From Desulfurococcaceae archaeon (GTDB lineage: Archaea > Thermoproteota > Thermoprotei_A > Sulfolobales > Ignisphaeraceae), in contig JAJHRF010000014.1 of NCBI GenBank assembly GCA_020832925.1, positions 1-36,884 of the forward strand: a DNA stretch of 36,884 bases, given 5' to 3'. Of this stretch, positions 1,446 through 17,924 are shown in pieces. The notes below the pieces were generated by a model. It saw only the letters and a list, made by a program, of their open reading frames with translations. It was not told where the DNA came from and ran no database searches. How positions within the stretch are numbered: the stretch's first letter is position 1; each line of letters begins with the position of its first letter. Made by a program: the position numbers and the translations under genes.

Positions 1446-1814
1446 TTGGCATGCTCTAGCGGTGCTGAAGAGAGATTGAAACAAGATTCTGAGCTTATCG
1501 ATATAGATATGTTTAGAAAGATCGATCTTAGGGTTGGTCTTGTTAAATACGCTGAAAAAGTTCAAGGATCTAGGAAACTGATTAAGTTGATTGTTGATCT
1601 AGGTTCTGAAGAGAGACAGATAATAGCTGGTTTAGCTGAGTGGTATAAACCTGAAGATCTTGTAGGTAAATACGTGGTTGTTGTAGCTAATTTAAAGCCT
1701 AAGAAGTTGATGGGTATGGAGAGCCAGGGAATGATACTTGCTACATGTGATAAAGAGAAGCCCGTAATAATAACTGTTGCTGAAGATGTTAAACCTGGTT
1801 CGAAGATATGCTAG
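1446..1814 (+). CDS. Stand-alone tRNA-binding OB-fold protein (MetRS beta/C-terminal type)
   Basis: A 122-residue protein matching the tRNA-binding domain (TRBD) found at the C-terminus of methionyl-tRNA synthetases and in Arc1p/CsaA-like proteins. Seen: DLRVGLV near residue 27, a basic KLIKLIVDLG strand, the RQIIAGLAEWY segment and VVVVANLKPKKLMGMESQGM, all typical of this OB fold. In many archaea this domain is a separate polypeptide called the MetRS beta subunit, which raises affinity for tRNA. The start is TTG, with AGGTG a short distance upstream. It precedes ileS in the same orientation, but ileS has its own TATA box. A general tRNA chaperone role is the alternative. Confidence 0.85.
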   Translation: MACSSGAEERLKQDSELIDIDMFRKIDLRVGLVKYAEKVQGSRKLIKLIVDLGSEERQIIAGLAEWYKPEDLVGKYVVVVANLKPKKLMGMESQGMILATCDKEKPVIITVAEDVKPGSKIC

Positions 1815-1839: not shown

Positions 1840-1903
1840 TTTATAAAGCTACGCAATTCCCTTCTATATAATGAATAAGATAACATGTTTTTTCGGAGGG
1901 TGA
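1840..1903 (+). promoter_or_regulatory. ileS promoter and Shine-Dalgarno
   Basis: TTTATAAAG at 1840-1848 is a good TATA box and predicts a transcript start near 1870. GGAGGGTGA at 1895-1903 is a strong archaeal Shine-Dalgarno. Its GGTG core ends 7 nt before the TTA codon at 1910. Other genes in the window (5140, 20548, 12593) show the same 7-nt gap before ATG, TTG or GTG. This motif therefore fixes the ileS start even though the codon there is not a standard initiator. Confidence 0.75.
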
Positions 1904-1909
1904 CCAACA

Positions 1910-4888
1910 TTATCTGAGGAACTTCCGCAGATCAAAAGTAGGTATGATCCGTTAGCTGTAGAGAGATGGGTATCGAATTTCTGGGCAAGGCATAGCATAT
2001 ATAAGAAAGTTGTAGAGGAGAGGTGTAGAGATAGCGATAAGATCTTTAGATTTCTAGAAGGTCCGCCAACAGCTAACGGATTTATGCACGTTGGGCACGC
2101 TAGGGGAAGAACATTTAAAGATGTTATGCTGAGATTTGCTAGGATGAATGGCTATTGCGTATGGGATCAAGCTGGTTGGGATACTCAAGGACTTCCTGTA
2201 GAGCTCGAAGTTGAGAGAAACCTTAAGCTAAAGTCTAAGAAAGATATAGAGGTGTACGGTGTAGAGAAGTTTATACAAGAATGCCAGAAACTAGTAGATT
2301 TCTACATAGATCACTGGAGAAAAGCAAGCGAAAGACTTGGTCTATGGCTTGACTATGACAGAGCTTACGAAACTAGGCATCCAAAGTATATAGAGATCGT
2401 ATGGAGATTCCTCAAAATAGCCTGGGAGAAAGGATGGCTCTACGAAGACTTTAGAGTAGTACCCATATGCCCAAGATGTGAAACAGCTCTAAGTTCGCAT
2501 GAAGTTGCTCAAGGTTACGAAGTTGTAGAGGACCCCAGTCTCTACTTCAAAATACCTCTAGAAGATGAGCAGAAGACCTACTTAATAGCCTGGACAACAA
2601 CACCTTGGACAATAATAGACAACGAAGCAGTGGCAGTTCATCCTAACGAGGTTTACGTCAAGATAAGGGTTGGGGATGAGTACTGGATACTAGCTGAAAA
2701 GAGGTTGAAACCATTTGTAGATGAGATAGGGTTGAAGGAGTACGAGGTTGTGGATAGATTTCCAGGTTCAGCAATCTTCAACAAAAGGTATGTACATCCA
2801 CTACTAGAAGAGGTGCCTGCTCATAAAAACCATGGCCAGGAGAATCATAGAGTTCTAGTAGCTGAATGGGTCAGCATGGAGGAGGGTACAGGAGTAGTAC
2901 ATATAGCTCCTGCACACGGTCCTGAAGATTTTGAGTTAGGTAAACAATACGGATTAATAGTGTTCAATAGTTTGCAGAAGAACGGCGTATTTAAAGAAGA
3001 AGCCGGTAAGTATAAAGCTCTATGGTTTAAACAAGCAGATAAATCCGTTATCGAAGACCTTAAGAAGAAGAATCTGTTATTATATTTGGGGAAGTATCAG
3101 CATGAATATCCACACTGCTGGAGATGCGGAACACCTCTGATGTTCTTCGCAGATAAGCAGTGGTTTATAAAAATCGACCCAATTAAAGAGATCATGCTCA
3201 AGGAGAACGATAAGATTGTTTGGAGACCTGATTGGGCTGGTAAAAGGTTCAGTGATTGGCTTGCGAACGCAAGAGATTGGTGTATATCTAGGGAAAGATA
3301 TTGGGGGACACCATTACCTATATGGACATGCCGTAGCTGTGGTTATAGAGTTGCTGTGAGTAGTGTTGAAGAGATAAAGAGGTTAAGCAAATCCGGCGAA
3401 CCTCCTCTAGATATTCATAGACCGTGGATAGACAGAGTTATTCTAAGATGTCCTAGATGTGGAGGGGATATGTATAGAGAACCTTACGTAGTAGACGTAT
3501 GGATGGATAGCGGTGTTGCTCATACAGCATCTCTTGTACAGATAAATGCTGAGCATCTATTCAGCATGTTATTCCCATACGACTGGATAACAGAGGCTGT
3601 TGATCAGACAAGAGGATGGTTCTACACGTTGTTATTCACATCAGCTGTTATGTATGGATGTACACCGTTTAAATCAGTTCTATGTCAAGGACATGTACTG
3701 GATAAGTACGGTAAAAAGATGAGTAAAAGTAAAGGTAATGTGATATATGCTCTAGACTTCATGGAGAAAAACGGAGCAGATATTTTAAGGCTTTATCTTT
3801 TAACAAAAGCAGCTCCATGGGATAGCGTAAACTTTGATCCAGATGAGATAAAGGATGTTAAGAGGGTCCTAGATATACTGTGGAACTCTGTAAACTTCGC
3901 TATAACATACATGGATCTAGATAAATGGGATGCAAGTAGGTTGGAGAACGATGTTAAGAATCTCAAAGCCGAAGATTACTGGGTTCTGTACGAATTGAAC
4001 AATATGTTGAAGAGTGTAAGTAGCAAGATATGGTCAGGAGATCTACATCTAGCAGCAAGAGAAATCCTGAACTTTATCGTGGAGATACTTAGCCATAGAT
4101 ATATAACTATTATAAGGCCTAGAGTATGGCTAGAAGAGGATGCACCAGAAAAAAGAGCTGCTTACGCAACACTCTACATAACGATATCATCGTTGTTAAA
4201 AACTTTAGCACCTTTCGCACCTTATATATCTGAGTATCTCTACCAAGCATTTGTAAAGAGGTATTCAGCAGGTACACTAGTTAAAGAGAGTGTACACCAA
4301 GAGTTATGGCCGAAGTTGCCAGAGGAAATACTCAGAGAAGATATGTGGAAAGCCGCAATGTTGATGTTTAAAGTAGCGGATGAGGTTCTAGCTATAAGGA
4401 ATAGCTATGGTGTTAAAAGGAGATGGCCATTAAAACAAGCGGTTGTTGTGGTTCCTCCGGAACAGCTAGAATTGTTTAAGAAATCAGCAGATATTCTAAG
4501 AATCTATGCAAACATTAAGAATGTAGAGGTAGTGGATAAAATTCTAGAGCTTCGTTTAGCTAAACCTGTAGAAGTAGATCTCAAGGATGTAAAGGCTTAC
4601 ATCGATATAGCTGTAGATGAAGAGATTTTGATGGAAGGTTTGGTCAGGGATATAGTTAGACGAGTTCAGATGCTACGTAAGGAAAAGAACCTACCGGTGA
4701 ACTACGTAGCCAAGAAGCTAGCTATATACAGCGATGCAGAGATCATTCGTAAAGCTGTTGAAAAGTATAGAGATTACATAGGAAGAGAAACGAGAGTTGA
4801 GGTTGTAGAGATATCGTTAGAGAAACACGAGAACGCTATCGAATATAATTTAGAGGAATACAAAGTATATATAGCTCTAGAACTATAG
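1910..4888 (+). CDS. ileS: Isoleucyl-tRNA synthetase
   Basis: Class I synthetase that charges tRNA-Ile. Seen: the HIGH motif as HVGH (residues 60-63 from the chosen start) inside GPPTANGFMHVGHARGR, the KMSKS motif at about 603-607, a large editing (CP1) domain with TTTPWT, zinc-binding CxxC pairs at CPRC and CRSC/CPRC, and a C-terminal anticodon-binding region. The length of 992 residues is normal. The frame is open and IleRS-like back to 1904 (residues ELPQIKSRYDPL are typical of the N-terminus), yet it contains no ATG, GTG or TTG before 2084, which would delete the N-terminus up to the HIGH motif. TTA at 1910 sits at the right distance from a strong Shine-Dalgarno and gives a normal Met-Ser-Glu start. 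An in-frame TGA at 1901 excludes longer versions. Confidence 0.95.
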   Translation, partial: LSEELPQIKSRYDPLAVERWVSNFWARHSIYKKVVEERCRDSDKIFRFLEGPPTANGFMHVGHARGRTFKDVMLRFARMNGYCVWDQAGWDTQGLPVELEVERNLKLKSKKDIEVYGVEKFIQECQKLVDFYIDHWRKASERLGLWLDYDRAYETRHPKYIEIVWRFLKIAWEKGWLYEDFRVVPICPRCETALSSHEVAQGYEVVEDPSLYFKIPLEDEQKTYLIAWTTTPWTIIDNEAVAVHPNEVYVKIRVGDEYWILAEKRLKPFVDEIGLKEYEVVDRFPGSAIFNKRYVHPLLEEVPAHKNHGQENHRVLVAEWVSMEEGTGVVHIAPAHGPEDFELGKQYGLIVFNSLQKNGVFKEEAGKYKALWFKQADKSVIEDLKKKNLLLYLGKYQHEYPHCWRCGTPLMFFADKQWFIKIDPIKEIMLKENDKIVWRPDWAGKRFSDWLANARDWCISRERYWGTPLPIWTCRSCGYRVAVSSVEEIKRLSKSGEPPLDIHRPWIDRVILRCPRCGGDMYREPYVVDVWMDSGVAHTASLVQINAEHLFSMLFPYDWITEAVDQTRGWFYTLLFTSAVMYGCTPFKSVLCQGHVLDKYGKKMSKSKGNVIYALDFMEKNGADILRLYLLTKAAPWDSVNFDPDEIKDVKRVLDILWNSVNFAITYMDLDKWDASRLENDVKNLKAEDYWVLYELNNMLKSVSSKIWSGDLHLAAREILNFIVEILSHRYITIIRPRVWLEEDAPEKRAAYATLYITISSLLKTLAPFAPYISEYLYQAFVKRYSAGTLVKESVHQELWPKLPEEILREDMWKAAMLMFKVADEVLAIRNSYGVKRRWPLKQAVVVVPPEQLELFKKSADILRIYANIKNVEVVDKILELRLAKPVEVDLKDVKAYIDIAVDEEILMEGLVRDIVRRVQMLRKEKNLPVNYVAKKLAIYSDAEIIRKAVEKYRDYIGRETRVEVVEISLEKHENAIEYNLEEYKVYIALEL

Positions 4889-5139: not shown

Positions 5140-5688
5140 ATGAAGAGATACATATTGCCAGAAGAATTAAGGAAAACCTTAGCTTACATACATATCTATG
5201 CCAAGGAACATATAAATCCTATCACGGGTTTAAGAGATTTTATAGGTTTTAAGCTTCGTTCAGAGTTCTATGGGTATTTACATAGAGTTGCCGTGGTAGG
5301 TGATATAGTTTGCTCAACGTTTTTAGGATATGTAGGAGTTCCAAGGATATGTATAATCGACGGTAAAACGCTTAGAGAACTCTATAGTGGTGTTGATGTT
5401 ATTTCAAAGAGTTTCAGCTATATGTTAAGATGTACAAATCCTCCAGGCTCTATATCGGAGGAATGTATCAAAACTATAGCGAGAGCTCTCAATACTTTAT
5501 ATCCTGTGCTTGTAATGGTTGAGGGAGAAGAAGATTTATTGGCTCTAGCTCTATGTCTCATAGGTAAAGATATTGATTACGTAATCTACGGGATACCGAG
5601 GGAAGGGGTAGGAGTTATTGATGTAGAGAAATTTAGGGTAACAGCTATAAACCTTTTTACACAGTTTAAAGTTATCGAAGAACTCTAG
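5140..5688 (+). CDS. GTP-dependent dephospho-CoA kinase (DUF359)
   Basis: A 182-residue member of the archaeal DUF359/COG1909 family, shown in Thermococcus to phosphorylate dephospho-CoA with GTP, the last step of coenzyme A synthesis. Archaea use it in place of the unrelated bacterial CoaE. Seen: VVGDIVCSTFL (first metal-binding Asp), ICIIDGKTLR (second Asp region), CTNPPGSISEE, VMVEGEEDLLAL and YGIPREGVGVI, all in family order. ATG 5140 is preferred over GTG 5128 because GTGGTG stands 7 nt before it. It opens a run of same-strand genes leading into the hydrogenase maturation set, with only 20 nt to the next gene. Confidence 0.9.
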   Translation: MKRYILPEELRKTLAYIHIYAKEHINPITGLRDFIGFKLRSEFYGYLHRVAVVGDIVCSTFLGYVGVPRICIIDGKTLRELYSGVDVISKSFSYMLRCTNPPGSISEECIKTIARALNTLYPVLVMVEGEEDLLALALCLIGKDIDYVIYGIPREGVGVIDVEKFRVTAINLFTQFKVIEEL

Positions 5689-12029: not shown

Positions 12030-12593
12030 TCATAAAGCTAGTTTATCAGCGATACTCTTAAGAGCTTCAAGAGCTAACTCTAGGAACTCATCCAACTTTA
12101 TACCTAGCAACTCTATCTCCTTTATCCTCTCTCTATCGACACCTCTAGCAAAATCTTTAGATCTAAACTTCTTCATAAGGGTCTCTAGCTTAACTTCAGC
12201 TAGCTTTTTATTAGGCATAACTAACGCTGTCGCTATAATCAATCCCGAAGCATGGTCTGAAGCTCTTAACGCGTGCACTAATTTCAAAGCTTTTTCGTTA
12301 ACTACTTTGAACCCATTATGCTCGTTATGACCAGCTATAGCTTCTAAAACTTCTGAAGGTAAACCTCTATTCTTCAGAATATTTAAAGCTTCCAAGCCGT
12401 GCTTACGCATATCTCTACCAACATAATCGTAGTCTATATCGTGGAGAAGACCTACCAACCTCCACAGATCCTCATCTTCCCCAAGCCTTCTAGCTAAATA
12501 CATCATTATAGCTTCAACAGCAAGGCAATGTTTAACCATCTTCTCATCCCTTAAATACTGCTGAAGGAGTTTCAAAGCCTCTTCCCTATTCAC
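12030..12593 (-). CDS. HD-domain phosphohydrolase
   Basis: A 187-residue HD superfamily hydrolase. Seen: His22, the HD pair His51-Asp52 in LLHDIDYD, His89 in IAGHNE and Asp113 in RASDHASG, the complete ligand set. Small stand-alone archaeal HD proteins of this type are mostly uncharacterised nucleotidases or phosphodiesterases. The GTG start is supported by GGTG 7 nt upstream. The C-terminal 60 residues are charged and helical. It converges with the JAMM gene 10 bp away. Confidence 0.85.
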   Translation of the reverse strand: MNREEALKLLQQYLRDEKMVKHCLAVEAIMMYLARRLGEDEDLWRLVGLLHDIDYDYVGRDMRKHGLEALNILKNRGLPSEVLEAIAGHNEHNGFKVVNEKALKLVHALRASDHASGLIIATALVMPNKKLAEVKLETLMKKFRSKDFARGVDRERIKEIELLGIKLDEFLELALEALKSIADKLAL

Positions 12594-16658: not shown

Positions 16659-17521
16659 TGCCGAGATTTTGCGCTAACTGTGGAATAGATGAAAGTAGTG
16701 GAGTACCTATCATAGATAACCTTTGTTTAGATTGCTATGTAAAACTTAGAGAAGTTGTTAGAATACCGCACTCTGTAGATATACCTTCATGTAGAAAATG
16801 CGGGGCTATACTTATAGAAGGTAAATGGCTCTACCCTGCAAATTCTGACGAAGCTTTTGATATAATTAAAAGATACATAGCATCGACAGTTAAACCCCAT
16901 GACGATGTCGTTGTAAAGGATTTAGATGTAGAAATGATACCCCCGGATTTCTCAAGGGTGCACATACATGCAGATCTCTTAATCAAGGGTAGGTATAGCT
17001 ATAACTATGAACACGATATCGAGGTTAAGTGGGTTAAACAGCTATGTCCAGTGTGTTTCAGAAGAGCTAGTAGAGGATACGATGCTGTTGTTCAGTTGAG
17101 GTTCATTCATATGGATGAAAACGTTGAGATATTCAAGGATACTATTGAGAGTATGTTCCAGGATCAGCTGATAGAGGTTGAGGAAGTTGATAATGGATTC
17201 GATTTCAAAGTTGCATCACCTGGTATAGCTAAGAAAATAGCTACTATCGTTAAGAAGTACTGGAAAACAGTAAAGATAGTGGAGTCCTACGGCGATGTAA
17301 AGAGAGCGAAAGATGGTTCTAGAAAAGCTAAGCTGTATATATCTGTTAAAGTATTAAACCTAAGAGTTGGAGACTACGTTGTTATAGATGGTAAAGCATA
17401 CATTATTGAGAAGGTAGAGGAGAAAAACATTGTTGTTGTTGATAGTTCCGGTAATACCAGTATTATAGATGTAGACTACCTGTTAAACAGGTACGAAGGG
17501 TTTAGATCAAAACGTAGATAG
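16658..17521 (+). CDS. nmd3: NMD3 family ribosome export/maturation factor
   Basis: The 287-residue archaeal homologue of eukaryotic Nmd3, which binds the large ribosomal subunit during late maturation. Seen: four CxxC pairs making two zinc-binding modules (CANC, CLDC, CRKC, CPVC) in the first 140 residues, followed by the conserved RRASRGYDAVVQLR segment and a C-terminal eIF5A-like beta domain (LRVGDYVVIDGKAYIIEKVE). GTG 16658 overlaps the DUF424 stop. In archaea there is no nuclear export, so the role is presumably in subunit assembly. Confidence 0.93.
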   Translation: MPRFCANCGIDESSGVPIIDNLCLDCYVKLREVVRIPHSVDIPSCRKCGAILIEGKWLYPANSDEAFDIIKRYIASTVKPHDDVVVKDLDVEMIPPDFSRVHIHADLLIKGRYSYNYEHDIEVKWVKQLCPVCFRRASRGYDAVVQLRFIHMDENVEIFKDTIESMFQDQLIEVEEVDNGFDFKVASPGIAKKIATIVKKYWKTVKIVESYGDVKRAKDGSRKAKLYISVKVLNLRVGDYVVIDGKAYIIEKVEEKNIVVVDSSGNTSIIDVDYLLNRYEGFRSKRR

Positions 17522-17590
17522 TGCTTACGCTTATTACCAGGTTAAAGAGTTAGATCTAGGTGTAGAGTTTACTACAGTGTACTGGTTTCA

Positions 17591-17603: not shown

Positions 17604-17924
17604 ATATCGAAGAAAGCTCCTGAAGAACGTACAGCGAGAGATATTCCGTTACCCGGCGAAGGGCAGGTTATATGTGTAGTTGAGGAAATGATAGGGGCTG
17701 ACCATGTTAAAGTCAGATGTATCGATGGACAGACAAGGGTGTGCAGAATACCTGGGAGGTTTAGGAGGAAGAAATGGGTATCTGAAGGAGATGTAGTTCT
17801 AGTACTGCCATGGGATTTCCAGCCGACCAAGGGGGATATACTTCATAAATACGAGAAGGATGAGATAAGGAAGCTAATAAGTATGAATATAATCTCCAGG
17901 AAATTCATAGAGGGAGAAGAATAG
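17604..17924 (+). CDS. eif1a: Translation initiation factor aIF1A
   Basis: A 106-residue OB-fold factor that binds the A site of the small subunit during initiation. Seen: LPGEGQVICVVEEMIGADHVKVRCIDG, IPGRFRRKKWVSEGDVVLV, PWDFQPTKGDILHKY and DEIRKL, the complete family core. Homologues begin with a short basic tail such as Met-Ser/Pro-Lys-Lys some 15-20 residues before PGEGQ. Here that point is ATA 17604 (Ser-Lys-Lys follow), at the right distance from GAGGTGGGA. The only standard start upstream, GTG 17577, would add YWFQRWEP, unlike the family, and is poorly spaced. The identity is certain; the start codon is inferred. Confidence 0.95.
   Translation: MSKKAPEERTARDIPLPGEGQVICVVEEMIGADHVKVRCIDGQTRVCRIPGRFRRKKWVSEGDVVLVLPWDFQPTKGDILHKYEKDEIRKLISMNIISRKFIEGEE

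Follow-up and report, generated by a model that had tools for sequence, protein, structure and literature searches.

The window, i.e., the whole stretch of 36,884 nucleotides of contig JAJHRF010000014.1 from a Desulfurococcaceae archaeon that was analyzed here, contains an open frame of 994 codons (1904–4888), which is preceded by a TGA stop codon at 1901–1903. The frame encodes an isoleucyl-tRNA synthetase (IleRS), whereby the TIGR00392 profile is matched over positions 4–850 of 861 at a score well above its cut-off of 621.4 bits. This is the only match above the cut-off in the genome, and ileS is present as a single, intact copy. From 1904 onward the codons read CCA ACA TTA TCT GAG GAA, and the next in-frame ATG, GTG or TTG is the ATG at 2084, 58 codons past the TTA, which is directly followed by the HIGH motif (HVGHA from 2087) and lies downstream of the proposed start. 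Thus, the first-pass annotation was right in that the frame is open from 1904 and that no canonical start codon occurs before 2084. Among the 41 coding ORFs of the window, ileS is the clear case of a gene that has a good Shine-Dalgarno sequence and lacks a canonical start. One further ORF, which ends at 17924, has a coding appearance over 17487–17577, ahead of its first canonical start (GTG at 17577), and no clear Shine-Dalgarno sequence was seen in front of it. The features of the ileS locus are listed in Table 1.

Table 1. Features at the ileS locus of the window (positions refer to the whole stretch).
Feature	Position	Strand	Remarks
Upstream gene, methionyl-tRNA synthetase beta subunit (C-terminal tRNA-binding domain)	1446–1814	+	TIGR00399, 147.1 bits; TTG start, gap 7
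TATA-like box TATATAA	1865–1871	+	About -45 to -39 from TTA; read in sequence
Shine-Dalgarno sequence GGAGGGTGA, strong	1895–1903	+	GGTG at 1899–1902 conserved in relatives
Overlapping -1 frame ATT ATC TGA (Ile Ile stop)	1909–1917	+	Conserved 7-mer ATTATYY at 1909–1915
TTA, inferred ileS start codon	1910–1912	+	Gap 7 from GGTG; kept in relatives
ileS, isoleucyl-tRNA synthetase, 992 residues if started at TTA	1910–4888	+	TIGR00392, 849.6 bits

From the position of the TATA-like box, the ileS transcript is predicted to start at about 1892–1897. TATA-like boxes are also found approximately 36–44 nt in front of the TTA in Sulfolobaceae and in relatives of family f7. The last three bases of GGAGGGTGA, TGA, are the in-frame stop codon by which the ileS frame is bounded on its 5' side. 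Reading this TGA at 1901 as a sense codon of a longer protein starting at ATG 1871 was set aside, as these bases belong to the Shine-Dalgarno sequence and no comparable peptide was seen in the relatives. The strong Shine-Dalgarno sequence with its GGTG 7 nt before the TTA was found as originally described. It had also been claimed that the same gap is used by other genes of the window, which holds for those at 12593 and 20548 (gap 7), but not for the gene at 5140, where the gap is 6. As a genome-wide control we used one Sulfolobaceae genome, G055 (2.0 Mb), in which start positions rest on a simple codon model. Ordinary starts in one genome of the order cluster at gaps of 6–8 from GGTG, and therefore the spacing of the ileS start is normal.

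For comparison of ileS starts among relatives, which the first-pass annotation had proposed as a check, IleRS loci were drawn from the genus, family, order, and class of the window and their start regions were read. In families f1, f3, f7, f10 (one genus), and f11, which we take to be the Sulfolobaceae, the consensus is GGTG, 6 or 7 nt, and TTA TCY. Over these five families, TTA is present in 49 of the 50 loci that bear the motif (48 from the tally of start regions plus L016), and the remaining one, the sister species L010, was counted apart and has TTG at the same site; since the sequences are related, these loci do not count as independent observations. Within f11, TTA occurs in 21 of 29 genomes, the other eight having ATG or GTG. 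Leaving L010 out, 32 TTA loci have no in-frame canonical start between the upstream stop and the TTA, and 19 of these also lack one within the first 12 codons downstream. Lineages without TTA have an ATG or GTG nearby (L086, L090, genus g24), and the motif is absent from those loci of f5, f6, f8, f9, and f12 whose start regions were read. In four loci of a further family, f2 (L036, L060, L062, L101), ileS seemingly starts at an in-frame ATT or ATC located 7 nt behind GGTG, and there is no canonical alternative at that place.

The phylogenetic tree places the window sequence (L009) and L010 as sisters with a support of 100. A very long branch connects the two IleRS clades that bear TTA, and no fewer than five gains or losses have to be assumed; thus, both shared ancestry and convergence are possible. 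The conservation over five families lends strong support to the earlier proposal that the start of an essential enzyme is marked by a UUA. The first-pass annotation had also considered that a TTG was misread as TTA by sequencing. Such an error, be it in sequencing or assembly, or a dead gene might be suspected since the assembly consists of 101 contigs and the sister species has TTG. However, 48 other loci have the same TTA, and they come from independent genomes, some of which are single contigs. This refutes the misreading as a general explanation, and the frame is intact in a single copy, so that we regard an error or a dead gene as exceedingly improbable. The evidence as a whole comes from the comparison of sequences, which establishes the position, register, and long conservation of this apparent start, and translation of ileS very probably begins at the site and in the register of the UUA at 1910–1912.

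The conserved unit turned out to be wider than the UUA alone and comprises the 7-mer A-UUA-UYY (AUUAUYY). The A in front of TTA is present in 49 of 49 loci, compared to 84 of 177 ordinary Shine-Dalgarno-led genes of G055 with an A at position -1, and none of the loci whose start regions were read in these families has a TTA at this spacing without the preceding A. TCC, TCT, and TTC are the only triplets that occur as codon 2, which applies to only 5 of the 177 ordinary genes. When changes were counted along a tree (length 11.4) of 42 TTA sequences, sites -1 to +4 (ATTAT) had none, which is partly so by construction, as the loci were recognized by ATTAT. Three changes at +5 and seven at +6, all between C and T, were counted at sites that played no role in selecting the loci, compared to 11–20 changes at each of the next ten sites and 16–18 at fourfold-silent sites. 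A change from C to T at +5 converts Ser to Phe in frame 0, whereas in frame -1 the codon remains Ile (AUC to AUU). This overlapping frame reads AUU AUY, i.e., two isoleucine codons in the gene of the isoleucine tRNA synthetase, and it ends within 2 to 16 codons; in the window and in L011–L014, the stop follows directly upon ATT ATC. In 18 of the 21 Sulfolobaceae TTA leaders (L072–L091, L093), a stop codon (TAA, TGA or TAG) is located in frame -1 directly before the ATT. Within G055, the 7-mer occurs behind GGTG at 22 sites, of which only the one at ileS stands at the beginning of a long gene. Open stretches of 144–251 codons follow upon five of the other sites.

Given the register, the GTG within the Shine-Dalgarno core might serve as start codon (GTG RTA NCA TTA TCY), with TTA being merely the fourth codon. 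Most f1 loci and all f3 loci have this GTG in frame, as do most other members of the window's genus. However, the spacer of the window and of L010 is one base longer than in the rest of the genus, whereby the GTG of GGGTG is thrown out of frame and the TTA or TTG remains in frame. Since such an extra base would have broken an essential gene that started at the GTG, the GTG is not the common start. It likewise falls out of frame in f10, in the gap-7 Sulfolobaceae of f11, and in each of the 11 f7 loci, and since its frame differs in these families and in the window, it was rejected as a common start. Moreover, the GTG would have no Shine-Dalgarno sequence of its own, and it would be odd for a leucine at a plain fourth codon to stay TTA throughout 50 loci but for a single synonymous change, when fourfold sites have changed 16–18 times. 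Overall, we consider a start at this GTG very improbable, and for the window it is excluded.

The reading that we favor, and which is probably correct, is that the UUA at 1910–1912 itself pairs with the initiator tRNA and is the codon at which ileS translation starts. A short leader, which would comprise about 13–18 nt, bears the strong Shine-Dalgarno sequence, and the latter would place the complex of the 30S subunit, aIF2, and Met-tRNAi such that UUA occupies the P site. The initiator tRNA would then put in methionine at UUA, giving a protein that begins with Met-Ser-Glu-Glu-Leu-Pro-. Direct acceptance of UUA by the initiator tRNA is presumed here, and the weak codon may have been kept since low or regulated synthesis of IleRS was favored. 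A special initiator tRNA with a UAA anticodon was considered and rejected, as no initiator-like tRNA-Leu(UAA) was found in G055, which has only the ordinary class II tRNA-Leu(UAA). There are several points that speak against a direct UUA start. Only one standard base pair is possible between UUA and the CAU anticodon, and neither the invariant A in front of the codon nor the restriction of codon 2 to TCC, TCT or TTC is explained. In addition, translation in f1 and f3 could still begin at the in-frame GTG located three codons before the TTA. As cited in two papers, aIF1 of S. solfataricus has been reported to discriminate against non-canonical start codons (PMC8211752, PMC6237735), which makes a direct start at UUA, as well as the alternative start at AUU described below, noteworthy.

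The wider conservation could be accounted for if initiation took place at the overlapping AUU (1909–1911, frame -1) and was followed by a +1 slip onto UUA/UCY. When Ile-tRNA is ample, the AUY codon would be read and translation would stop early (as M-I-stop in the window). When it is scarce, the AUY codon would be hungry, tRNA-Ser would pair with the overlapping UCY, and the ribosome would enter the IleRS frame. The product would be the same Met-Ser- protein, and synthesis of IleRS would respond to a shortage of its own product. Frameshifting at hungry codons is described in PMC8211752 and PMC5009743. Such a slip agrees with the maintenance of the complete AUUAUYY, including the A in all 49 loci and the exclusive C/T changes at +5 and +6, whereby the change at +5 alters the Ser of frame 0 and spares the Ile of frame -1. 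It also agrees with the rapid end of the -1 frame, with AUU being an accepted start in Sulfolobaceae, with the distance of 5–6 nt between GGTG and AUU, which is within the used range, and with the f2 relative L060, in which GGTG, 7 nt, and ATT TCC are in frame. However, the idea was formed after the alignment had been seen, and conservation of -1 to +4 is partly due to the recognition of loci by ATTAT. The initiator tRNA would have to move from a better pairing (AUU) to a worse one (UUA), no AUU starts were seen for fen1 and leuS of the window's own genus, and the Y at +6 is not accounted for by the Ile codon itself. We found no documented archaeal start with a slip, and one -1 case is reported in the review PMC8211752. 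On balance, an AUU start with a slip is the main rival to a direct start at UUA, but appears unlikely. The fuller claim, that the ileS start is a seven-base isoleucine sensor, in which AUU is a start in the wrong frame and the slip occurs only when Ile-tRNA is lacking, seems slightly less likely still.

Two other schemes would involve the same bases. An ATG or GTG located further upstream in the -1 frame (GTG 1900 in the window, ATG in f7) could open a leader peptide, with the +1 shift taking place in AUU AUY. In most f7 loci the -1 frame indeed reads ATG NNN ATT ATY, and in the window it reads GTG ACC AAC ATT ATC TGA. Nevertheless, a start in the -1 frame is lacking from most f1 loci, and the ATG or GTG codons in question lie at a gap of 0 from the Shine-Dalgarno sequence. 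As a general scheme, the leader peptide with a +1 shift was rejected on account of the -1 frame stop just before ATT in 18 of 21 Sulfolobaceae TTA loci, and we judge this arrangement to be highly doubtful, even more so than a start at the GTG. Alternatively, UUA could be the start and AUUAUYY could in addition be the target of a regulator, namely a protein, an RNA, or even tRNA-Ile, since UUAUC is able to pair with the GAUAA in the loop of this tRNA. The conservation of the 7-mer would fit to such a target, as would the tRNA-Ile(GAU) loop, which is CUGAUAA in G055. However, there is no Rfam match over 1400–2500, and local RNA folding around the ileS start is not unusually stable (z 0.27). A structured RNA element was rejected for these reasons, and a regulator target in general seems quite improbable.

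Unusual starts are not confined to ileS in the Sulfolobaceae. In G055, the TGA of a GGTGA forms the upstream stop of 77 coding ORFs. A canonical start is located at gap 7 in 35 of these ORFs, and 25 have none within six codons. The gap-7 codons of these 25 are ATT (nine), ATA (five), TTA (one, which is ileS), ACG (one), CTG (one), and others. The fen1 gene begins with ATA, ATC or ATT, followed by Gly-Val, in 18 of 18 Sulfolobaceae genomes (L231–L248; G055:C1:617953) and has a stop just upstream of this AUH start, whereas fen1 of the window's genus starts with ATG. To our knowledge, the Met-Gly-Val start of fen1 is universal. Considering the G055 ORFs without a canonical start together with the Sulfolobaceae fen1, this archaeal order tolerates unusual starts. 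Furthermore, the archaeal-type leuS starts with ATT, ATA or ATC in many Sulfolobaceae (G055:C1:1341859, which is L205; L206–L219) and with ATG in the window's genus. Most of the Sulfolobaceae genomes surveyed for leuS also contain a second, diverged LeuRS gene. From these comparisons, AUH-type starts appear to be a habit of the Sulfolobaceae, and the UUA of ileS appears to be distributed more widely.

About a dozen more Shine-Dalgarno-led genes of G055 have ATT, ATA, ACG or CTG at the start (1139898, 1077216, 1394836, 794889, etc.), among them genes that were named by eye as TATA-binding-protein-like (ATA), succinyl-CoA-ligase-like (ACG), and homoserine-dehydrogenase-like (ATT). Another observation concerns an FtsY-like gene on the minus strand near position 1248773 of G055:C1, where one frame reads TTG TTT TGA and the +1 frame, which encodes the expected protein, reads TGT TTT GAT AGA. 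Its GGTG is located at a gap of 6/7, and the two frames may be linked by a +1 shift at UUU UGA, unless the sequence contains an extra T.

If true, a conserved UUA start in an essential gene adds a codon that is barred by annotation programs and nearly dead in initiation models, and it would mean that archaea can select a start by the Shine-Dalgarno sequence rather than by the codon. Should the overlapping Ile codons be of importance, the site would act as a minimal sensor of an amino acid within an archaeal gene for an aminoacyl-tRNA synthetase, and we know of no precedent for this. The N-termini of ileS are probably mis-annotated in this order, and the same may apply to fen1, leuS, and other Sulfolobaceae genes. 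A literature search of limited journal coverage found no paper on a UUA start codon.

Among known systems, the bacterial infC gene, which encodes IF3, has an AUU start, and such a weak start can serve self-regulation. Both infC and ileS are essential translation genes in which a strong Shine-Dalgarno sequence precedes a conserved weak non-AUG start. However, the AUU of infC is in frame, whereas in ileS the UUA is in frame and the AUU overlaps it one base upstream. Moreover, ileS encodes an aminoacyl-tRNA synthetase and its regulation is putative. UUA is counted among the possible start codons of NCBI genetic code table 4 (mold and protozoan mitochondria), but this is an organelle code without Shine-Dalgarno context, whereas ileS is an archaeal chromosomal gene. 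The AUU, AUA, and AUC starts of Sulfolobaceae fen1 and leuS resemble the ileS start in their gap of 6–8 from GGTG and the in-frame stop just upstream, but AUU, AUA, and AUC deviate from AUG solely in the third base, and UUA deviates at two positions. The classic case of an autoregulatory +1 frameshift is prfB, which encodes RF2 (PMC5009743). Only if the AUU start with a slip is right would ileS be comparable to prfB, in that a short, very conserved cassette behind a Shine-Dalgarno sequence favors the +1 frame upon shortage of the gene's own activity; RF2 shifts at CUU UGA inside the frame, whereas the proposed ileS slip takes place at the first codon and would sense an Ile codon. Thus, weak conserved starts as such are already known, and what is new is the UUA with overlapping Ile codons in ileS.
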